64,000 bases of DNA. Source: Pachyseris speciosa. Taxonomy: Eukaryota; Cnidaria; Anthozoa; Scleractinia; Pachyseridae. Of the stretch, positions 1 to 60,060 are shown piece by piece. The stretch covers positions 415,001 through 479,000 of the forward strand of contig JAEMWC010000100.1 in the NCBI GenBank assembly GCA_016490735.1, read 5' to 3'. The notes below the pieces were generated by a model. It saw only the letters and a program-made list of their open reading frames with translations, made no database searches and was not told the origin of the DNA. A program made the position numbers and the translations under genes. Within the stretch, counting starts at the first letter, position 1; every line of letters begins with the position of its first letter.

Positions 1-191
1 TTTTTTTCAGACATTAGAAATGACAAAAAGTAAAACAGAAGTCCAACGTGACACTGAGTTGTAAAGCATGGTTTACACTTAGACAACATAATGACATGGA
101 CATACATGTAATGACATAAGGAAAAGAGGGTTTCAACAAAACATGGATCCCCAGTTTGCTGATCCCCCACTGATCCCTGTACAGATTCCCC

Positions 192-236
192 CACTGATCC
201 CCTACTGATCCCCTACTGATCCCCTACTGATCCCCT
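192..236. repeat. 12-bp tandem repeat, unit CTGATCCCCTAC
   Basis: About four near-identical head-to-tail copies of a 12-bp unit, with looser copies just upstream (from about 158). Confidence 0.8.
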
Positions 237-10000: not shown

Positions 10001-13000
10001 TAGATACAGCCTTTTGTTCCAGTGCATTCGGGCCTTCCCGACATTTTCAACATCTTGAGCGCATTGCATGCTGGGAACTAATGAGAATTTTTGACAGCGC
10101 CCGTTCCTTCCCCCAATTCTTCCACATATAAACTAAGTCTACAGCCACTCCGACCTACCGCCAAAATTTCCTGCTCGTGGTCATCTCCAGTACACAGAAA
10201 TTCCAAAATATGTGGCGGTAGGTTGAGAAATTCATCAATAGTCGAGTCCCAAAGGTACTAAGTGTTCGACCGGTGCTGAAAGCAAAACGAAGACTGCGAG
10301 ATTCGACGAAATATAAGAACTCCTATATCACCCAGGACTATGCAAGAGCCATACAAATGGAAAGGAAAGTTTTGATAAAAGCTATGTTTGTAGCCCGAGA
10401 GAAAGGTATGAAGGCAAAAGTTGTGGACAGAAATTTAGTTATTAACAACAATGTTTACAACGTAGATAATATTCCTCATGATCTTAGGTCACCTAGTTTT
10501 TAAAACATCCATTTCACGTAACTATCGCAAATTAATGCACTTTTAGGACGTTAAAGAAAACCTTCCCAGCGCTCAGTTCGCTTGCCCAGAACAAGATGTT
10601 CTACCAAACCCAATGCAAATTTTATCGTATTTTTCTGTTATGTGTTTATCTTAGTTGTATTTATGTCCTGTTTTTTGCACGAGTGTTTTTTTGCTCTTTT
10701 AATTTATTGGTATGTGTGTGTGTGTATAAGGCGGTAGCCAATAAGCGTGTCTGTGCCGCTGCAACAATGCCGGCTTTAAATACCAACTTGGCACCTTCAA
10801 TAATCCCACTAACGAGTTAGTCATCTGCTCTTTAAATGCGAGGGGCTTAGCTAACATTACAAAGAGACGTGAGACTTTTCGATGGCTTAAGACGAAAAAA
10901 TGTTCGATCCATTTTCTTCAAGAAACTCACTGTACTAAGCAAGATGAGGCATATTGGATATCTGAATGGGGGTACACAGCCGTATTTAGCAGTTTCTCAA
11001 GTGCGCGCGCCGGAGTCAGTATTCTTTTTAATAATAATTTCGCTTTTGAAATTTTGAAATTATTTTCCGATCCAGAGGGCCGTTTTATCATAGTTGACAT
11101 CAAAACAGAGAACAAAACTTTGACTCTTTTGAATATTTATGCACCAAATGATGACAATCCTGCTTTCTTTGAGAATGTTCTCACCCACCTTTTATCCTTT
11201 GATTGTGAAGATATAGTTTTCGGGGGTGATTTTAACTTGGTAATTGATATTCAAAAAGACAAGAAAGGTGGTAACCCAGTGACACACACCAAAGCGTTGA
11301 AAGTTGTTCAGCATATAATTGATAGGTTAGACCTTACTGACATATGGCGTCTTCTTAATCCTGATACCGAACGATTTACTTGGAGAAGGAGAAACCCCGA
11401 AATACATTGCCGCCTAGATTTCTTCCTTACTAGCTCCAGCTTAAATACAATAGTAACCAAAGCAGATATCAGCCCTGGATATAAAACAGACCACTCTCTC
11501 ATTACACTTCACCTGGTGAACAATCCAAACCTTAGAGGCCCAGGATTTTGGAAGCTAAATACATCCTTCTTGTTAGAAGATGATTATGTTGCTTTAATAA
11601 AGAAAACAATTGAAGACGTTGCAAAGGAATATGAAAATAATGATGAGGTTGATGCCCCTCTCCTCTGGGATACAATGAAAATGCGTATTCGGTCAACATC
11701 GCTAAACTATGGTAGGAAAAGAAAACGTGATATGAAATCTGAGGAAACAAGTATAGAAAGCGTTATATTGTCCCTCCAAAGAAAACTGGAAGAAAATAAT
11801 CTACTCGAAAACACAAAAACGAATCTCCAAAAAGAATTAGAGGCCAAAATAGCCGAAAGAGAAGAAATTGTAAAATACAAAACCCGTGGGGCAATATTAC
11901 GATCCAAATCCCGTTGGTACAATGAAGGAGAGAAAAACACAAAGTATTTTCTAACTCTAGAAAAACGCCACTTCAACGAAAAAACAATTAAACATTTGCA
12001 AATAAGCGACGATAGTATGATCTACAAGGACAGTGACATCCTAAAAGAAGCAAAATGCTTTTATCAAAAATTATATTCTTCAAGTTTTCCAAATCTGGAG
12101 GCCCCCGAGGATATTTTCTTTCCCAAAGGAAACGCTCCTACTCTCAACGTGCTTGAACAAGAAGAGTGCGAAGGTCTCTTAACTGAAACTGAATGCTTAG
12201 AAAGCCTCAAATCTATGGAACCGAACAAGAGCCCTGGAACTGACGGTTTGCCAGCTGAATTCTATAAAAGATTCTGGAGTGATGTTAATCCATATCTCAT
12301 AAATGCCTTAAACAATTCATATGAAAAGGGCCTACTGTCAGTGTCTCAAAGAAGAGGTCTGATCTCCCTCATACCGAAAAAGAACAAACCTACCGATCAA
12401 CTGAAGAACTGGAGGCCGATCACTCTGCTCAACTGTGATTATAAGATAGCCACGAAAAGTATCGCTTCTCGAATTAGAAAAGTTTTGCCAAAAATAATTA
12501 ATAATGATCAAACCGGCTTCATGAAGAATAGATTTATCGGAGAAAATATTAGGCTGATAGATAGTCTGATAAATTTCACGAATAAAGAACAAATTCCGGG
12601 GCTATTACTCTTCGTTGACTTCGAGAAGGCCTTTGACAGCTTAGAATGGTCCTTTATTCACAAAACCCTCCAATATTATAACTTCGGAAAATCTTTAATG
12701 ACTTGGATAAAACTTTTTTATACGGATATTAGCAGCAGCATTCAAAACAATGGTTGGGCTTCTGAGTTTTTCACTTTACATCGCGGTGTGAGACAAGGCT
12801 GTCCACTCTCCCCTTATTTGTTCATACTTTGCGCAGAAATTCTAGGTAATGCGGTGAGAACGGATAACGGCGTCCGCAGAATAAAGATCCTTAATACTGA
12901 ATGCAAACTGTCCCAGTACGCAGATGACACAACCTTAATTTTGGATGGCTCACAATCTTCTCTCTTAAGAACTTTTGAATTACTTGATGCATTCGCGGCC

Positions 13001-14867
13001 ATATCGGGCTTGAATGTTAATTATGAGAAAACTGAAGCTCTCTGGATCGGCTCTTTGCGGGACTCAAATATCTCTTTCCCTTTAAATAAGCCTATAACTT
13101 GGGCTAGGGAAAAGGTCTTTGCCTTGGGGGTTTGGTTTTCGACCGGAGAAATGAACTTCATCTCCAGTAATATCCAGGAGAAAATTGATAAATTAAAGAA
13201 GATTATAGGAAGCTGGTCGGCCAGACGACTTACTCTTTTGGGTAAAATTACCGTTTTGAAAAGTCTAGCAGTGTCACAGTTGGTGTATGTGTTGGCTTCT
13301 CTCCCGACTATTCACGGCGCGCTGAAAGAAATCAATTCCCTGTTATACGAGTTCCTCTGGGATGCGAAAAACGACAAAATCAAAAGATCGGAAATGATTA
13401 ATGACTACGACAAAGGAGGGCTAAAGATGATTGACATCGAAAGTTTCAACAAATCATTAAAACTGAAATGGATACAAGGCTATTTGAATGACGATAATCA
13501 TGCTAAGTGGAAGCTCTTCTTTGACTACTATTTAGAAAAATTCGGAGGCAAGTTGGTGTTTTTAAGTAATCTTAGCACACAGGATGCTGCAAGTCTTGAT
13601 CTAACTGACCCCTTCTTAAAAGAAGTTCTTGAACACTGGACAAACCTTAACTATAGAGAGGAAAATTTAGATTTTATGAACTCGTACATCTGGCAGAATT
13701 CATTAATCAGAATCGGAAACCAACCTCTTTTTTACCCGTCTTGGTTGGAGGCCGGAGTGACGGTGGTCAAGGACCTTGTAGATATTAAACAGGATTTCTT
13801 AAGTTATGATGTTTTTGAAAACAAATTTCAGATTAAAACCAACTATCTGGAGTATTATAAAATTCGATCTGCCCTACAACAATATAAGAAGAGTTGCTCG
13901 CAAGAAACTGATAAACCCCATACAGAGAGTGCGGTTGAGACTATACAGTCCTCGCAAAAAGTTGTTAAAAAACTTTATAAGCTGCTTATCGAAAAAAAGG
14001 CTACCCATCCTTCAAGAACGGAGGAAAAATGAAAACGGGAAATTCAACCATTTGGAAATGTAACTGTTGATTGGAAAAAATCTTATCAATTACCGTTTCT
14101 CTGTACAAGGGACTCTAAACTCAGAGTATTTCAGTTTAAACTTTTACACAGGAGGATTGCTACAAATGACTTTTTATGTAAAATTGGACTAGAGCAAACT
14201 GACCTATGTTCCTTTTGCAAAGAAACTGCGGAAACTCTGATGCATCTTTTTTGGAACTGCAGACATACAAAGCTTTTTTGGGAAGGAACTTTCGAATGGA
14301 TAACCCAAAATTTTAAGGATCTGGAAAACTTTAAGCTCTCCCCTTCTTTCTGCTTGGGCCTTATTGACAATATATCAGATCTCCTTGTACACCAGATCAT
14401 TCTTATTGCTAGATCCTACATATACACTTGCAAGTTTAAAAGCTCTTTACCAAAGCTGGAAATGTTTATACAGCTAGTTAAGATAGCTATGAAAGTGGAA
14501 AAACAAGCAGCCCTAGAAAATAACACAGTTAGGGCTTTTGAAGTGAAATGGTATCGACTTAGATAGTCCCTCGCATACGAAGTGATTCAAATGGTGGAAA
14601 TGGTATGGCTGCCACTGTTGTTTGCGGTACTTGATTACTGTGTTGTAAGTAGGTTAGTTTTCGTTGTAAGGTCGCGTATTATTGTTTTTATAAATAACCT
14701 CTGTATTGTGTGTAATGTAGTAAGTCACATGTACGATGTAGGTATGGTATACTAGTATAAGTATTATGTGCAATATAAGTGAAGTGTAGTAAGCAAGTAT
14801 GGTATTAAGTACTGTGCAAATATCATGTAAGTAAGTAGAGTGTGGTATGTGATTAATAAAAGTGGAC

Positions 14868-44900: not shown

Positions 44901-45045
44901 TAAGGTACGATGAAGATTCCTAAAACGCTATTCTTTTGAATTCGTTTCAAAGTGCGTTTAAAACGGCTTGGTTTTCCTTTTAAACATCGCCGGAATTTCT
45001 AAGTGCTGGCACACGTAAATACAATGCAATTACTATACAATTATT

Positions 45046-45128
45046 ATTATTATTATTACTACTACTACCACCTACCACTACGACCACCACCACCACCACC
45101 AACACCACCGCCACTGCCACTGCCACTG

Positions 45129-45181
<53 letters not shown>

Positions 45182-45221
45182 GCTACTACTGCTACTACTA
45201 CTGCTACTACTGCTACTACTG

Positions 45222-45289
<68 letters not shown>

Positions 45290-45302
45290 GCTACTACTAC
45301 TG

Positions 45303-45361
<59 letters not shown>

Positions 45362-45368
45362 GCTGCTG

Positions 45369-45400
<32 letters not shown>

Positions 45401-45449
45401 GCTACTACTACTACTACTACTGCTACTACTACTACTACTACTACTACTA
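45046..45449. repeat. Long (TAC)n microsatellite, about 400 bp
   Basis: Nearly pure TAC/CTA triplets with scattered TGC and CCA variants. The poly-Leu, poly-Val and poly-Ser open frames across it are artefacts. Confidence 0.97.
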
Positions 45450-45716
45450 TAGTTGACATAGTTTTCGTTCAGTTCCCCTGGGACTGGGACTAGAAGGAAT
45501 AACAATCCCCCATTTTAGTCGGCACGTGTTGAGGGTGTAAGGTTCATTAGTTGGTTTCTTGTCATCCCAGTTAGACAGTTGATTTCTACAAAATAAACAA
45601 AAAAACGAATGACACTCGTTTGAAAAGTAAATCTCTACTGATCCGTCGAATTATCTTGTTTATCCTGTTAGGCCTCGTTTTGATGCCCAGCTTATGTCCG
45701 TGCTTCAGCCAGTTGT

Positions 45717-46879
45717 TTAAAGGAGCTTTGGATTTTGAAAAGTTAAGCCTCAATTTTTCAAAAAGGTCATTTGTAATCGGGTTCACTATCCTTCATCATC
45801 CTCGTCATATATGCATTTATTCTTGTCTCTTTGGTGCTTATTACTCGGGCTTCGAAGAGCGCCCGAGGTTTAAAATGTCGTCCGTTCTTCTTTTCATTCT
45901 TTGTCGAGTTTCATCCACAAAGCTCACTTCCGGCGTTTCTGCGCAAGCGCTAACTATTTTTAACAACTCACGTATCGGAAAACGTCGATTCACCTTGTGG
46001 ACTGCCGTGTTTCCCCGTGTCCGCTCCATTGAGATGTCCATTTTGTTGAATAACTCAAGTACGGGATATCACACACCCCTGAGACTTTGACAGGTAGTTT
46101 ATTTACTATTTTCCCACAATATGTCAATTTCTGGACATTAGTTTTTGAATGATAAGCAATTAGTTTTTACTTGCGTGACTTGAAGGTTCCTTTCAATTAT
46201 GTTTCTGGCTGGATTTACGTATTTGTAGACAGTTTCACTCCGCTGATTATTTTTCTCCTCACATTTCACCGAGACTCTATTAACGTTTATGCGAAAAAAT
46301 CCTACATCGTTCGATAAGCGTTTTCTTTCTCAAACAATTATCCATCGAAGCGAAAACAAGTGTGCTTAGTTTTTTTTGGAATCAATGCACTATTTTTATC
46401 CTATTGCACTACGAGGAAACTCTGTGGACTAGAGGTTACTGTTTCTGCCTCTGACGCAGTTGGCCCGAGCTCGATATATCGCATATTGCGGTTAATTTCT
46501 TTTTTTTTTTTTTTTTTTCGTTTCTCTTTTTCTTCTTCCTTTAGAAATATTTTTACAAGTGTAATAATTATTGTTCTCAATGGTTGAGCTGTAAAGTAAT
46601 TTTGTAATTTTAGAGGGATATACGTTGATAGAAGTCTAAAGAAATAGACTCCAACACAAGCTAAGCACAATGCGTCCGATGTAAGAAAGACAGACTTCTC
46701 TCTGTTCTTTTGTTTACCGCTAAATTAGGGATACAATACTGTTTTTTGCAAGCCCGAGTTTAGGCTAATTGTAGCCTCTTGTCTTCTCTGACAAATTGTT
46801 ATTTCACTGTTTCTCACAATTAAATGCATTTTTTATGTCTCTCATAATGACCCAAAATATCGTGACCGAGCTCCTTTAA
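45717..46879. mobile_element. TTAA MITE (4021 family), split by another element
   Basis: TTAAAGGAGCTTTGG at the left and GAGCTCCTTTAAG at the right. The bases match the 4021 element up to TTTGGTGCTTA (45840) and resume at about 46785. An ACTCGGGCTT element fills the gap. Confidence 0.75.
45841..46780. mobile_element. Second copy of the ACTCGGGCTT element
   Basis: A shorter relative (about 0.94 kb) of 32993-34402, nested in the TTAA MITE. It includes the decayed tRNA-like box and a run of about 20 T near 46499-46518. Confidence 0.75.
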
Positions 46880-48800
46880 GTAAAAAACTTGCGCTTTCAA
46901 ATTTCCCGTGAGTTTGCTGTTCTAACTTTTTTTGTCGCTGGGTGCGGCGCTACTCAGCGGCTAAAAATGTGCTTACCAGTCAAATTCTCTAAATACGAAT
47001 CAGTCTTACCTTTTCTGAAGGCGTTCGAATGACGTGCTAAAATGCAAACTGCTAGGATTTCACTTTTGAATTCTAGACGTCGTTGAAGCAAGTAAACTCA
47101 GTGTATGCACCAGAGAGTCGAGGTAAGGTCACAAAAAATGACAGAACTTAATTCTTGTGATGTCCTTGTGTCAGCTGATGAATGTTGTGGGCGAACGATG
47201 AAAATCGAATCAAACTACAAATGATTTCTTCATGATCAAAATTGAGTTCATCTACAAACATTTCTTGGGCTCCCGTTGCCGACCGACTCGTTACCTGGTT
47301 TACAATCTGACCAGAGGCTAAGAAAGAAGCCATAAATTGGTCGATTACAGAAAACGAATAAAGCATATATCATAATGTCAGTCACGGCCAACACAAATAA
47401 TATATAAGCTTAAGTCTTAATTAGTTGAATAACTGCAAAGTCCGTGAACGAAGATCCTGCTTGCTTGTACGTTGCTTGTACAGGAGATCTAATCAACCAA
47501 ACTTGAACAATAGACGATTAGAGGTTCAAGGTTGATACAACGTAATATATTTGAGAACAATATTTCGCTGTTACTAAATTCTAATAACGAAATTACAATA
47601 TTATATCATGGAGGATTTTGCAATACGTAGGAGGGGCGGAAATGACGTTTACACGATGCTGCAAATAAAAAACAATCGAACAAAATAAATAGAATAAAAT
47701 AATGCAAGATTAATTACTGACTGTCGCAGTACTGGACAGCTATGTCGTCAATATGAAAGTCGTAAAACGAACCCCATTCGGAACGGAAAGAGAGAACGCG
47801 CTTATAGCTTTACTTTCTTCAATTCTTTGCCCTTGAGAGTAAGACGCTGTTTATAATTCGGTTATTATTAATGGTTCCAGCCAAGCAAAAGTAGACAACC
47901 GCATTTTTAGAATTACAGGGGGAGTCCCAGATTTATGAACTTTCGTATGTGTAAGACGACTGCTTCGGAGGAGAAAATGTGTTCAAATTACTTGCGTTTT
48001 CTCGTGAGTCCACAGCAAATTTTGACCACTGTGATGACGAATATCGTTGTCGATAAGAGTATAGACAACGCTAAACCACATTCGATTTGTTTTTTACCAC
48101 AATATCAGCGTCAAAGAAAATGTTAATTTCAGAGCGCGCGCTGAAAAAGGCATTGCGCGACACGTTGACGCAAGCAGCGTTGTGTAGACTCTTATCGACA
48201 ACGGTAAATTAGCTAATCAGATTGCGAGATTACTAGCAATTGTGGTAAAAAAAATGTGTTGAAAACTTCAAACAGAATGTCCTCGCCAGCACAGTTTAGC
48301 TATATAGCTATTTTGACTGAATCGTCTTACTTTTTGCTGCCCGAAGCAGTTAAGTACATCTCATATTGCTGTTTAAATCTTCTCCAATTTTCTGACGTAT
48401 TTCCATCGAAACTCAAAGCACTAGGTTTGTGAAAGCTATCCATGTTTTAAATCCCACTGCTAACACCATGTCAGGATTTCAAATCTGACGAGGCCTTCCA
48501 GAGTATGCTTTCGAAGTCACACAACGTTCTAACGTGACAGCGACTATTTGAATGAATAACATCTTCAGCTAGCCTCCTTCGCAGACGTCTTTGGGCTCGT
48601 CACGCGTTCGTGGGCAAGGAACGCGTGACGAGCCCAAAGACGTCTGCGAAGGAGGCTAATGTTCAGCTCGTTTAAGACAAACTTGATAGTTTGTATATCT
48701 AGTACTTTGTATCGAATGAAACCTTTAAAAGGTCCTGAATTTTCAGTGATCGAATTCCCTTATTTACAAGCATTTGACCCAGAAAAAATAGCCCAACAGA
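46781..48800. repeat. Segmental duplication, part b (matches 51790-55795 with insertions)
   Basis: Near-identical to 51790-53268, 54205-54613 and 55650-55795. The second copy has gained or kept two extra blocks. A conserved - strand frame (47148-47366, with VIDQFMASFLASGQIVNQ) occurs in both copies, but it meets a GTAACG donor-like site and its function is unknown. Confidence 0.8.
48573..48660. repeat. Perfect 40-bp-arm hairpin MITE
   Basis: TAGCCTCCTTCGCAGACGTC mirrored exactly by GACGTCTGCGAAGGAGGCTA, with GTGGGCAAG at the tip. A copy with one base change is at 54522-54610. Confidence 0.9.
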
Positions 48801-51716: not shown

Positions 51717-51789
51717 TTCTTTTGTTTCGCTATTCTTCTTTTGTTTATTTGTACTGTTTTTTGCAAGCCCGAGTTTAGGCTAATTGTAG

Positions 51790-53268
51790 CCTCTTGTCTT
51801 CTCTGACAAATTGTTATTTCACTGTTCCTCACAATTTTAATGCATTTTTTATGTCTCTCATAATGACCCAAAATATCGTGACCGAGCTCCTTTAAGTAAA
51901 AAACTTGCGCTTTCAAATTCCCCGTGAGTTTGCTGTTCTAACTATATTTGTCGCTGGGTGCGGCGCTACTCAGCGGCTAAAAATGTGCTTACCAGTCAAA
52001 TTCTCTAAATACGAATCAGTCTTACCTTTTCTGAAGGCGTTCGAATGACGTGCTAAAATGCAAACTGCTAGGATTTCACTTTTGAATTCTAGACGTCGTT
52101 GAAGCAAGTGAACTCAGTGTATGCACCAGAGAGTCGAGGTAAGGTCACAAAAAATGACAGAACTTAATTCTTGTGATGTCCTTGTGTCAGCTGATGAATG
52201 TTGTGGGCGAACGATGAAAATCGAATCAAACTACAAATGATTTCTTCATGATAAAAATTGAGTTCATCTACAAACATTTCTTGGGCTCCCGTTGCCGACC
52301 GACTCGTTACCTGGTTTACAATCTGACCAGAGGCTAAGAAAGAAGCCATAAATTGATCGATTACAGAAAGCGAATAAAGCATATATCATAATGTCAGTCA
52401 CGGCCAACACAAATAATATATAAGCTTAAGTCTTAATTAGTTGAATAACTGCAAATTCCGTGAACGAAGATCCTGTTTGCTTGTACGTTGCTTGTACAGG
52501 AGATCAGTAATCAACCAAACTTGAACAATAGACGATTAGAGGTTCAAGGTTGATACAACGTAATATATTTGAGAACAATATTTCGCTGTTACTAAATTCT
52601 AATAACGAAATTACAATATTATATCATGGAGGATTTTGCAATACGTAGGAGGGGCGGAAATGACGTTTACACGATGCTGCAAATAAAAAACAATCGAACA
52701 AAATAAATAGAATAAAATAATGCAAGATTAATTACTGACTGTCGCAGTACTGGACAGCTATGTCGTCAATATGAAAGTCGTAAAACGAACCCCATTCGGA
52801 ACGGAAAGAGAGAACGCGCTTATAGCTTTACTTTCTTCAATTCTTTGCCCTTGAGAGTAAGACGCTGTTTATAATTCGGTTATTATTAATGGTTCCAGCC
52901 AAGCAAAAGTAGACAACCGCATTTTTAGAATTACAGGGGGAGTCCCAGATTTATGAACTTTCGTATGTGTAAGACGACTGCTTCGGAGGAGAAAATGTGT
53001 TCAAATTACTTGCGTTTTCTCGTGAGTCCACAGCAAATTTTGACCACTGTGATGACGAATATCGTTGTCGATAAGAGTATAGACAACGCTAAACCACATT
53101 CGATTTGTTTTTTACCACAATATCAGCGTCAAAGAAAATGTTAATTTCAGAGCGCGCGCTGAAAAAGGCATTGCGCGACACGTTGACGCGAGCAGCGTTG
53201 TGTAGACTCTTATCGACAACGGTAAATTAGCTAATCAGATTGCGAGATTACTAGCAATTGTGGTAAAA
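51790..53268. repeat. Segmental duplication, part b, second copy
   Basis: Matches 46781-48247 at very high identity, including the - strand frame at 52164-52382 and the + frame at 52953-53144. Confidence 0.85.
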
Positions 53269-54204
53269 AAGAGTCTAGACAACGCTGCTCGCGTCAACGT
53301 CTCGCGCAATGCCTTTTTTCAGCTCGCGCTCTGAAATCAACATTTTCTTTGACGCTGATATTGCGGTAAAAAACAAATCGAATGTTTGTTAGCGTTGTCT
53401 ACACTCTTATCGACAACGATATTCGTCATCACGGAGGTCAAAATTTGCTGTGGACTCACTCGGCTGCGCCTCGTGAATCCACAACATTTTGACCACTGTG
53501 ATGACGAATATCGCTGTTGATAAGAGTATAGACAACGCTAAACCACATTCGATTTGTTAAAATGACCGCGCGCTCCACGCAGTCACAGTCCTGTCTCGGC
53601 TTCTATCGAGTAGGACATTTTCGAAGTCCAACGTACATGGATTTTGTTTAGTTTTCGGATATCTTTCAACATTTTAAGATAGAGTGAAAGTAAAATCACT
53701 TAAATCCACTTCAACATTTGAAGAAAGTAGCGTATAACTTTGTCAAATTTTTGTTTTCCCTAAAAATTTCGCTATATTCGCAAAGATTATGCTTCAAAAT
53801 TTGGGAACCTGGGGTCGAAAATTAAAATTTGAAGCAGATGTCACCCAATTTTTTGCATTTGATTAGGAGGGTTATAAGAAATCTTAAAAATTCGTTTACG
53901 GTCGTAGAGAGATGAGTCTGTTCTTTATACTTCATAAATAATCTCAGTACAAATGTCTTTCAAAAGACATTTTCGCTCTTAAAATCCGCCTCTTTGTAGC
54001 GGCGTTACAGCGGTTCAAAGTCGGTGCATACATCACTTACTGTAATTTTAGCCTTGTTTGTCCCCCAGTCAAGATGGTGTCATTAACCGTGAAAAGGTCC
54101 ACTGATGTCTCTCGAAGACGACGTTCTTCCTGGGGTTGCAGTACCGCTCAAATTATTCAAGAACTTTGTCCAGCTTCTTCTCCGGTCACCTTCGGGAACT
54201 GAAA
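53269..54204. repeat. Block present only in the second duplicate, with inverted copies
   Basis: The first 200 bp are an inverted copy of 53000-53215 (GATAAGAGTATAGACAACGC and relatives). A third, direct copy follows near 53460-53560. From 53580 to 54204 I see no gene or repeat ends. Confidence 0.6.
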
Positions 54205-54721
54205 TGTGTTGAAAACTTCAAACAGAATGTCCTCGCCAGCACAGTTTAGCTATGTAGCTATTTTGACTGAATCGTCTTACTTTTTGCTGCCCGAAGCAGT
54301 TAAGTACATCTCATATTGCTGTTTAAATCTTCTCCAATTTTCTGACGTATTTCCATCGAAACTCAAAGCACTAGGTTTGTGAAAGCTATCCATGTTTTAA
54401 ATCCCACTGCTAACACCATGTCAGGATTTCAAATCTGACGAGGCCTTCCAGAGTATGCTTTCGAAGTCACACAACGTTCTAACGTGACAGCGACTATTTG
54501 AATGAATAACATCTTCAGCTAGCCTCCTTCGCAGACGTCTTTGGGCTCGTCACGCGTTCGTGGGCAAGGAACGCGTGACGAGCCCAAAGACGTCTACGAA
54601 GGAGGCTAATGTTCAGGATACTTCACAAATTAATGTGATCAAGTAAGCTGAAGCCACTCAAAAGGCACTAAGGCCACATGGTAGCGGGCATTACCCCTTA
54701 AATCTACCAAAGCAAAGATTG

Positions 54722-54805
54722 AGCCCAAGCATTAGCAGCCATGGACAGCTGTTTCGGCCTTGTTAGGCCTCATCAGCATGGCATAGCTAATGCTCAGGCT
54801 CAAGT
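54722..54805 (-). ncRNA. Type I hammerhead ribozyme motif, copy 1
   Basis: On the - strand: CTGATGA, stem II GGCC-TAACAA-GGCC, GAAA, CAGCTG, then TC before CATGG. Stem I is long: GAGCCTGAGCATTAGC pairs with GCTAATGCTTGGGCTC. All core bases are present; predicted cleavage is between 54744 and 54743. Stem III is the self-complementary CAGCTG, so an efficient fold probably needs a dimer. Confidence 0.8.
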
Positions 54806-55024
54806 ACCCACATATCAATAAAACAAGCAACGAAAACGTAAAGCTTGTGGGATGTGGCTGGAGTGACAAGGATACTTCACAAATTAATGTGATCAAGTAA
54901 GCTGAAGCCACTCAAAAGGCACTAAGGCCACATGGTAGCGGGCATTACCCCTTAAATCTACCAAAGCAAAGATTGAGCCCAATAAAACAAGCAATGAAAA
55001 CGTAAAGCTTATGTGGGTACTTGA

Positions 55025-55106
55025 GCCTGAGCATTAGCTATGCCATGCTGATGAGGCCTAACAAGGCCGAAACAGCTGTCCATGGCTGCTAATGCTTGGG
55101 CTCAAT
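55025..55106 (+). ncRNA. Type I hammerhead ribozyme motif, copy 2
   Basis: CTGATGAG from 55048, the GGCC/GGCC stem, GAAAC and CAGCTGTC; predicted cleavage after C55080. The flanks GCATTAGC and GCTAATGC form stem I. Confidence 0.82.
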
Positions 55107-55351
55107 CTTTGCTTTGGTAGATTTAAGGGGTAATGCCCGCTACCACATATCAATAAAACAAGCAATGAAAACGTAAAGCTTATGTGGGTACTTGAGCCTG
55201 AGCATTAGCCCGCTACCATGTGGCCTTAGTGCCTTTTGAGTGGCTTCAGCTTACTTGATCACATTAATTTGTGAAGTATCCTTGTCACTCCAGCCACATC
55301 CCACAAGCTTTACGTTTTCGTTGCTTGTTTTATTGATATGTGGGTACTTGA

Positions 55352-55433
55352 GCCTGAGCATTAGCTATGCCATGCTGATGAGGCCTAACAAGGCCGAAAC
55401 AGCTGTCCATGGCTGCTAATGCTTGGGCTCAAT
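55352..55433 (+). ncRNA. Type I hammerhead ribozyme motif, copy 3
   Basis: Identical core to copy 2, with CTGATGAG from 55375; predicted cleavage after C55407. It lies 327 bp downstream of copy 2 in the same orientation. Confidence 0.82.
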
Positions 55434-55979
55434 CTTTGCTTTGGTAGATTTAAGGGGTAATGCCCGCTACCACATATCAATAAAACAAGCAATGAAAACG
55501 TAAAGCTTATGTGGGTACTTGAGCCTGAGCATTAGCCCGCTACCATGTGGCCTTAGTGCCTTTTGAGTGGCTTCAGCTTACTTGATCACATTAATTTGTG
55601 AAGTATCCTTGTCACTCCTGCCACATCCCACAAGCTTTACGTTTTCGAGGCTAATGTTCAGCTCGTTTAAGACAAACTTGATAGTTTGTATATCTAGTAC
55701 TTTGTATCGAATGAAACCTTTAAAAAGGTCCTGAATTTTCAGTGATCGAATTCCCTTATTTACAAGCAATTGACCCAGAAAAAATAGCCCAACAAAACAA
55801 GCCATAAATTCTAAACATTGCAAAAAAATTACTACTAATTTGACATGCACGAGGTCGTATCAAATTCCGGTAGAAGAGTTCCGGATTTGTGCAAATGTGT
55901 GGCTTGGAGTACAAAAAGTGGTATTGAGGGACTGTATAACTTGAAGGTTTTATCAATAGAGCGTTTAAAACACAAGGTT

Positions 55980-56099
55980 GTTATCTATTGCATAACCTAC
56001 GTATTATACAAAAAGTTATACATCAGCGAAACAGGAAGAAGATTAGGTGACCAATTCCGAGAACATCTACGTGATGTCGAGAAAGATGACAAAGATTAG
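55980..56099 (+). pseudogene. Penelope-like GIY-YIG endonuclease fragment
   Basis: YKKLYISETGRRLGDQF then REHLRDVEKDDKD matches the GIY-YIG nuclease tail of Penelope-like retroelements (usual form YIGETGRRLGDRFREHL). No reverse transcriptase is visible beside it. It lies about 330 bp right of the ribozyme array. Confidence 0.65.
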
Positions 56100-58779: not shown

Positions 58780-60060
58780 GTTGTTAAGTCAGTTCCATAG
58801 TATAGCACCGAAATATCGGATAGACTTCTATGCAAAACCAGTCCTTGGTCTCGGTGTATTTAAAGACGGTTTTTGCCTCAAGTTCTAATTGGACTCGCGT
58901 CTGACGAACAAATCCTGAAGCGGAGTAGGAATCAACCCATAATAACATTTGCAAGATAAAACTAGGAATCACAGCGTTGAAAGTAAATATGTCTTAAAGG
59001 AATCCACTTTACAGTACTTAAAACTAGTTCGGTAGGCGTACACCAGTTAAGACGGTAAATTATCCTAGCGGCTCTGGCATGAATGCGATCAAGTTCATCA
59101 AACAGCGATTTGTTGCACGAGCCCCACACAATTAGACCATATAGTAAGACACCATATAATACGATTGACGGTGATAACCACCATATCAGGGGTAGTACTC
59201 ATAACACATATGGTGGTATCATCAGCATACATATGCAAATCACCCTCACAGTCAATCACAATGTCAGGTAAATCATTACAAAACAATGAAAATAAGGTAG
59301 GACCGAGCACAGATCCGTGAGGAAAACCGAATGTCACTTTTGGCTACGATAAGTTGGAACAACAACCGTTAATCATGGTGACTTGATACCTTTTTGCTAA
59401 ATAATCTTTCATCCATAGCCAAAGGTCTCCAGAAATTCCCATGCTTTGCAGCTTTTGGAGAAGCACAGTATGAGATATTGAATCAAACGCTTTTTTAAAA
59501 TCCACAAATACAATTCCAACTATCATGTTTCTGTCGAGTGCCCTTCTCGAAATTTTCAGTCATTTTACGTACCGTGGGATAGCCTTTCTTGTATGCCAAT
59601 TGGTGGGGGTTTCTCAAGTTGTGATCGGTCATGTGCGAAATAATAGAGGAAGATACAGGTCACTCCATTGTTTTTCCAGGAACGCTAAGTAATGAAATAG
59701 GACGATAGTTACATTTGCCCGTCTCGTCATCCTTCTTGTACATGGGGATTACATTTGCGATCTTCCACATGGCTGGAACAAATGTCACAATAAGCGCTTA
59801 CCTTAAAAACAGACATCAACGCCAGTATGATGGCTTTGTTGGCAAGCTCTAACAATTTTGGCGCATCCGCATTTGACAATTCGTACTTCATGTGTCACTT
59901 GCATTTGATTTCTAAACTCCCTATATTTTGTCCACAAAGCAGGATCATTGGAGGCTTTAGCCTTCAGCAGAGTTTTAAATCTTTTTTTTCATCCTATGCC
60001 GTATCTGAGGAGTAATCCAGGGAAGTGGTTGTTGTCTCATCTCAGCTTGACTTAACATAC
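58780..60060 (-). pseudogene. Decayed CR1-like non-LTR retrotransposon, reverse transcriptase region
   Basis: Read leftward in shifting frames: PWITPQIRHRMKKRFK (about 60030), ALWTKYREFRNQ, MYKKDDETGKCNYRPISLLS (about 59700), GIVFVDFKKAFDSISH (about 59510), GFPHGSVLGPTLF (about 59330), MYADDTT (about 59230) and RIHARAARIIYRLNW (about 59070). The order is that of a CR1/L2-type ORF2 from linker to C-terminus. Frameshifts and stops (breaks near 59526 and 59340) show that it is dead. The endonuclease is absent. Confidence 0.8.

Follow-up and report, generated by a model that had tools for sequence, protein, structure and literature searches.

The window analysed here, the whole stretch of 64,000 nucleotides from Pachyseris speciosa, includes a repeated block of 1,030 bp at 54617-55646 in which three complete hammerhead ribozyme cores are found, the first on the minus strand and the other two on the plus strand. 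The block is bounded by two copies of a 15-bp target site duplication (TSD), and a paralogous sequence located approximately 6 kb upstream has the same target site without the insert. The features of the locus are listed below. Unit positions are numbered in the ribozyme sense, position 1 being the base directly 3′ of the predicted cleavage site.

48252-48798, plus strand: paralogous empty site, with one copy of the 15-bp target at 48652-48666 and no insert
54520-54608, no strand assigned: near-perfect palindromic MITE-like repeat of 89 nt, whose end overlaps the left TSD copy; not part of the retrozyme
54602-54616, plus strand: left TSD copy GAGGCTAATGTTCAG, 15 bp, perfect, present once in the empty site
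54617-54982, minus strand: left cDNA, antisense of the 254-nt unit, positions 127->1->254->16, 366 nt or 1.44 rounds
54738-54782, minus strand: hammerhead type I core 1 (RF00163, 33.9 bits; RF02275, 32.5 bits), with cleavage predicted from its sequence 3′ of the C opposite 54744
54980-54982, no strand assigned: junction of the two cDNAs, with the 3-nt microhomology CAA
54983-55646, plus strand: right part, 664 nt, a copy of the 327-nt variant in the sense direction, in which 156 nt between 28-nt repeats are skipped once
55042-55086, plus strand: hammerhead type I core 2, with predicted cleavage 3′ of C55080
55146-55209, plus strand: first 64-nt insert, consisting of inverted 187..152 (36 nt) and direct 185..212 (28 nt), flanked on both sides by the 9-nt repeat CCGCTACCA
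55369-55413, plus strand: hammerhead type I core 3, with predicted cleavage 3′ of C55407
55473-55536, plus strand: second full copy of the 64-nt insert
55647-55661, plus strand: right TSD copy GAGGCTAATGTTCAG, 15 bp, perfect
55977-56096, plus strand: GIY-YIG endonuclease remnant, about 320 bp downstream and outside the retrozyme, 85% identical over 40 aa to P0123 (PF01541)

The three 45-nt cores are identical to one another and complete. Each is composed of CTGATGA, a GGCC/GGCC stem II, GAAA, CAGCTG, and TC, followed by a long interrupted stem I; stem II has 4 bp with a 6-nt loop, and stem III is the self-complementary sequence ACAGCUGU. By analogy, such a stem III would allow the ribozyme to act as a dimer, as has been demonstrated for the axolotl (PMC7229834). 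It was confirmed that the motif pieces reported in a preliminary description of this DNA are present in three copies and that both strands of the locus encode ribozymes. The covariance search with the type I model, proposed in the same description, gave matches by E-value. In an Rfam search of 1.7 kb evaluated by E-value, RF00163 (Hammerhead_1) matched 3/3 copies with 33.9 bits (E 3.1e-6), each core lying 0.1 bit below the gathering score of 34. For this reason, the default Rfam scan at the gathering threshold gave 0 matches within the 64-kb window. When the whole window was searched with E values up to 0.05, RF02275 (HH9) matched the same three places with 32.5 bits (E 2.9e-4), and no ribozyme match was found elsewhere in the 64 kb. 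The 79-nt HH9 match spans the whole 77-position model, whereas its score is lower than the family's gathering score of 52. Within the window, the hammerhead unit is a single locus.

Hammerhead patterns were also searched for in IMG/VR. The strict pattern gave 0 loci there, while the pattern lacking stem III gave 26 loci. The loose pattern gave 39 matches, in 8 of which stems I and II can each reach 4 bp or more; these 8 are other sequences with a hairpin-like stem III. Two groups of hammerhead-like sequences in viral contigs (L003, L005, L022, L024, and L032; L011, L025, and L031) share a 5-bp stem II, and their stem III is of either the CCCG..GGG or the CCTTATTAGG type.

The repeated block had been described as spanning 54617..55647. 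The left edge stands, while the right edge must be moved to 55646, as bounded by the 15-bp TSD. The empty site is 99.5% identical to the left flank (415 nt, 2 differences) and 98.6% identical to the right flank (148 aligned nt). Thus, the combination of the 15-bp TSD and the empty paralog indicates that the block arrived as one piece, and, judging from these borders, 54617-55646 is a single retrotransposon insertion. Most simply, this insertion would postdate the separation of the two flanking copies. Inverted arms of 265 nt within the array are 100% complementary, and such arms are hard for short-read assembly. However, a perfect TSD together with an empty paralog is hardly expected of an assembly artefact made from a simple tandem array, which I regard as very improbable.

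The surrounding DNA includes a segmental duplication of approximately 99% identity (46737-48666 versus 51752-54616, in pieces of 1,519 and 415 nt). Its second copy is broken by an extra block at about 53270-54202, which has an inverted 191-bp piece (48004-48193 versus 53459-53269, 93%). The 89-nt MITE-like palindrome recurs at 48570-48658 with one difference and yields miRNA-family matches below the cut-offs. All miRNA-family matches from Rfam are under the gathering scores, and those inspected sit on palindromes or inverted repeats; they were taken as chance hairpin similarity. A long trinucleotide microsatellite that is open in several frames lies at 44980-45500.

The order of the segments and the junction can, like the borders, the TSD, and the empty site, be read directly from the sequence. 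The left part is antisense to a 254-nt unit, so that the unit of about 254 bp given in the preliminary description holds for this part. In the sense part, by contrast, the repeat spacing is 327 bp (300 nt, 100% identical), and there is a further spacing of 171 bp. The 327-nt variant is the 254-nt unit plus the 64-nt insert and a duplicated 9 nt, and the 156-nt skip, which occurs in one round of the right part, is by arithmetic 327-171. The right part is composed, in order, of inverted 179->152, 185->254->65, inverted 187->152, 185->212, 57->254->65, inverted 187->152, 185->212, and 57->166. It had been claimed that each block is copied both ways. The mixed orientation is indeed present, but the pattern is simpler: as far as its sequence tells, the array requires one main inversion, plus the 36-nt inverted piece within the 327-nt variant. 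The sense and antisense arms may possibly form long dsRNA.

A model of two cDNAs rebuilds 1,029/1,030 bases of the element, the sole mismatch being T for A at 55619; the model includes one base, position 167 of the inverted pieces, that was set from the window. The three inverted pieces have a common base at this position, differing from the direct copies, and therefore were probably inherited together. The breakpoints also repeat exactly (inverted 152 to 185 in 3/3, 65 to inverted 187 in 2/2, and 212 to 57 in 2/2), which points to a template already carrying them. The junctions of the 36-nt inverted piece have 1-3 nt of microhomology. At the main junction, a palindrome was looked for and none was found. 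Since a random junction shares at least 3 bases in 6.4% of trials, the CAA microhomology there is suggestive but not strong. Both halves exceed one unit in length, and the predicted cleavage site is crossed without a gap, once in the left half and twice in the right half.

Could a tandem array have been inserted first and reshaped later, through inversion, duplication, or gene conversion at the DNA level? The identical 300 nt at 327-bp spacing would also fit a recent tandem duplication. However, the inverted half directly abuts the TSD, so that a DNA inversion would have had to reach the element border to the base. I consider this order of events quite unlikely.

Judging from the sequence features, the element agrees with the metazoan non-LTR retrozymes described in corals and sea anemones. 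Like these (PMC7229834, PMC4918200), it has a type I hammerhead, with core and stems matching RF00163 at 3/3 copies. Its unit is small and repeated (254 and 327 bp with three ribozyme copies, for a retrozyme range of about 150-450 bp), and its GC content is 0.457, below 50% as in retrozymes. No stop-to-stop ORF of at least 60 aa lies wholly inside 54617-55646; a minus-strand ORF at 55581-55859 overlaps the right end of the element. The TSD exceeds the 4 bp of the retrozyme definition and is accompanied by an empty site, and its 15 bp equal the TSD length reported for the Nematostella vectensis repeats (PMC4918200). The retrozymes of Acropora millepora are approximately 225 and 245 bp in length and give rise to circular RNA (PMC7229834), and a stable predicted circle fold is another common trait. 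Thus, of the retrozyme or Penelope-type element proposed in the preliminary description, the retrozyme is supported by the hammerhead, the small unit, the GC content, and the TSD, while a Penelope coding frame is absent from the inside.

The tandem copies, circular RNA, and TSDs of animal retrozymes are already known (PMC7229834, PMC4918200, PMC7761336). Unlike metazoan retrozymes as described in these sources, the present element has both orientations in one insertion, as well as two unit lengths (254 and 327) and a 171-bp spacing. In the text of PMC7229834, supplements aside, none of the words "inverted", "opposite", and "orientation" occurs. In a literature search whose scope stopped short of most subscription journals and of supplements, no paper joining "retrozyme" and "twin priming" was found, and none of the matches listed had a title on inverted or both-strand retrozyme insertions. 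As in twin-primed L1 insertions, the copy is partly inverted, with a TSD and microhomology at the junction of the halves, between which there is a single inversion. In contrast to those insertions, the copy exceeds one round of the unit and has no poly(A) end.

It is probable, leaving the enzyme out of the claim, that a retrozyme was inserted by priming from both strands. As inferred from its relatives, transcripts of the 254-nt non-coding unit would be cut by the hammerhead to unit length and closed into circles. A staggered cut, 15 nt wide, would then provide two 3′ ends. The top strand would prime at position 127 of a ribozyme-sense 254-nt circle and be extended for 1.44 rounds. The bottom strand would prime, at the right TSD, on a ribozyme-sense circle of the 327-nt variant at position 166, and its cDNA would run about 2.5 rounds with one skip between the 28-nt repeats. 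The two cDNAs would meet and join at CAA, the TSD being generated when the staggered ends were repaired. Followed from the TSD towards the junction, each half is antisense cDNA of the ribozyme strand. Since both can be first-strand cDNA of ribozyme-sense RNA, the main inversion may have arisen without a switch to the opposite strand.

The circular form of the template, the priming from both strands, and the number of template molecules are what I infer from this arrangement. That each half runs past one full unit with no scar at the cleavage site fits a circular (or uncut multimeric) RNA. The left half is of the 254 type in two passes, and the right half is of the 327 type in two passes; thus, two template molecules are suggested. 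The alternative is that the insert was skipped repeatedly, and one or the other must be invoked. A multimeric linear RNA would, by analogy, be an alternative template to the circles, because unprocessed RNA dominated among the in vitro substrates of PAc, a Penelope-like element of the anole, and ribozyme cleavage was not needed (PMC11167929). If that type of enzyme acts here, this preference speaks against a need for circles.

It is less easy to explain the array by one reverse transcriptase making one continuous cDNA with repeated strand switches, either by template switching or by fold-back self-priming. The 36-nt inverted piece within the 327-nt unit does call for a strand switch at some time, which the microhomology of 1-3 nt at its junctions would suit, and inverted repeats are frequent in Penelope elements, many of them having a palindromic junction and being ascribed to self-priming on an antisense template (PMC3846280). 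On the other hand, the exact recurrence of the breakpoints and the lack of a palindrome at the main junction speak against repeated switching, and this explanation is unlikely. With priming from both strands, the 36-nt piece is the only part needing a strand switch, and it was most simply inherited from the template. Thus, the origin of the mixed orientation in reverse transcription, as put forward in the preliminary description, is supported by the TSD and the empty site, while the template switching suggested there is half right, as it would apply to the 36-nt piece only.

The predicted folds were also compared with those of shuffled sequences. The 254-nt circle has a predicted free energy of -91.2 kcal/mol (z -5.3), whereas 60 shuffles gave -66.3 +/- 4.7. 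The antisense circle is predicted to be nearly as stable (-83.8 kcal/mol, z -4.8), and the stability of the fold is therefore not a mark of the ribozyme strand. A 171-nt circle would have -60.1 kcal/mol (z -4.3). The strong predicted fold of the 327-nt circle (-151.7 kcal/mol, z -14.3) is expected because of the inverted piece. In the best predicted fold of the ribozyme region, the core is mispaired (-50.5), and the hammerhead fold is 6 kcal/mol worse (-44.5) in this calculation, which ignores tertiary contacts.

Which enzyme mobilised the retrozyme? LINEs and Penelope-like elements have been named as candidates, the latter as strong ones from co-occurrence, shared hammerheads, and tandem copies (PMC7229834), and retrozyme repeats are described as showing no motif that tells the mobiliser (PMC7761336). 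I lean weakly towards a Penelope-like element rather than a LINE. A distance of 39 nt separates the two cDNA starts (127 and 166), and between them lies the most A+C-rich 24-mer of the unit (19/24, rank 1/254 windows); the whole 39-nt interval has an A+C rank of only 10/254. Random pairs of starts agree with both features in 0.45% of cases, and with each singly in 8.7% (30-40 nt apart) and 17.2% (enclosing the A+C-rich window), figures that are uncorrected for the choice of these features after looking. The comparison of start sites rests on one insertion (n=1), and the link to Penelope is post hoc. In the predicted circle fold, the A+C-rich stretch is only partly in a stem.

The purified PAc protein cleaves and extends both top and bottom strands in vitro. 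It uses two neighbouring start sites within the RNA, usually in an AC-rich stem loop, and what lies between these starts corresponds to the 30-40 bp "tail" seen in genomic copies (PMC11167929). In the rotifer Penelope examples, one end carries an inverted repeat and a 31-bp tail is optional; TSDs of 8, 9, and 10 bp occur in three described cases, and other insertions lack a TSD (PMC3846280). The present insertion resembles these elements (Pen2a_Av, PMC3846280; PAc, PMC11167929) in its inverted repeat at one end with direct repeats opposite, its tail-like difference of 39 nt between the ends, and its short TSD of 15 bp, although this architecture is seen in one insertion. In the Penelope-type architecture the target is AT-rich; here, 8/15 bases of the TSD are A or T. 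Unlike Penelope-like elements, the insertion has no reverse transcriptase or GIY-YIG frame inside, and the palindrome that is frequent at their inverted junctions is absent. Unlike PAc, which starts within the AC-rich loop, the starts here flank the A+C-rich stretch. The hammerheads of Penelope elements are described as minimal variants (PMC7761336).

Outside the retrozyme, an 86-aa downstream frame gave no match in Pfam, while a protein search with it gave 86 matches among 90 candidates, several of them with PF01541. The GIY-YIG remnant at 55977-56096, which I take to be of the Penelope type, suggests that such elements have lived in the genome, but no more than that. Two fragments of another reverse transcriptase were found on the minus strand at 59101-59559 (RVT_1, 26 and 28 bits, for a Pfam cut-off of 29.6).

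LINE machinery may instead have carried out ordinary twin priming without a Penelope protein; the mechanism would be the same as that preferred here, and only the enzyme would differ. L1 offers the precedent of copies that are inverted and truncated and have TSDs (PMC2837659), the Nematostella TSDs of 15 bp were termed LINE-like (PMC4918200), and a LINE with endonuclease and reverse transcriptase domains lies in the window at 10745-14566. However, a poly(A) was not found at the right border, and the starts are internal to the unit. The L1 nick consensus is TTTT/AA. The nick sites here are unlike it, though this consensus is that of L1 and may not be that of the local LINE. Twin priming by a LINE is conceivable but somewhat doubtful. 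The LINE itself, on the plus strand, has endonuclease, RT, and zf-RVT domains in one frame with one in-frame stop, and is 99% identical over 91% to the public protein P0001. Among the best 120 of 692 matches of the LINE search, there are four proteins of the stony coral Oculina patagonica, the best being 60% identical.

Tentatively, then, animal retrozymes may be copied by Penelope-like reverse transcriptases that start at two fixed internal sites of the circle, which lie approximately 39 nt apart on either side of an A+C-rich segment, and that extend the two cut strands simultaneously; this locus could be the footprint of such an event, with two different circles, one per strand. Priming from both strands would be a simple account of the head-to-head repeats of Penelope elements as well. 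Where both cDNA starts, the junction, the TSD, and the empty site are preserved, as in this insertion, the mobiliser of retrozymes becomes a testable question.
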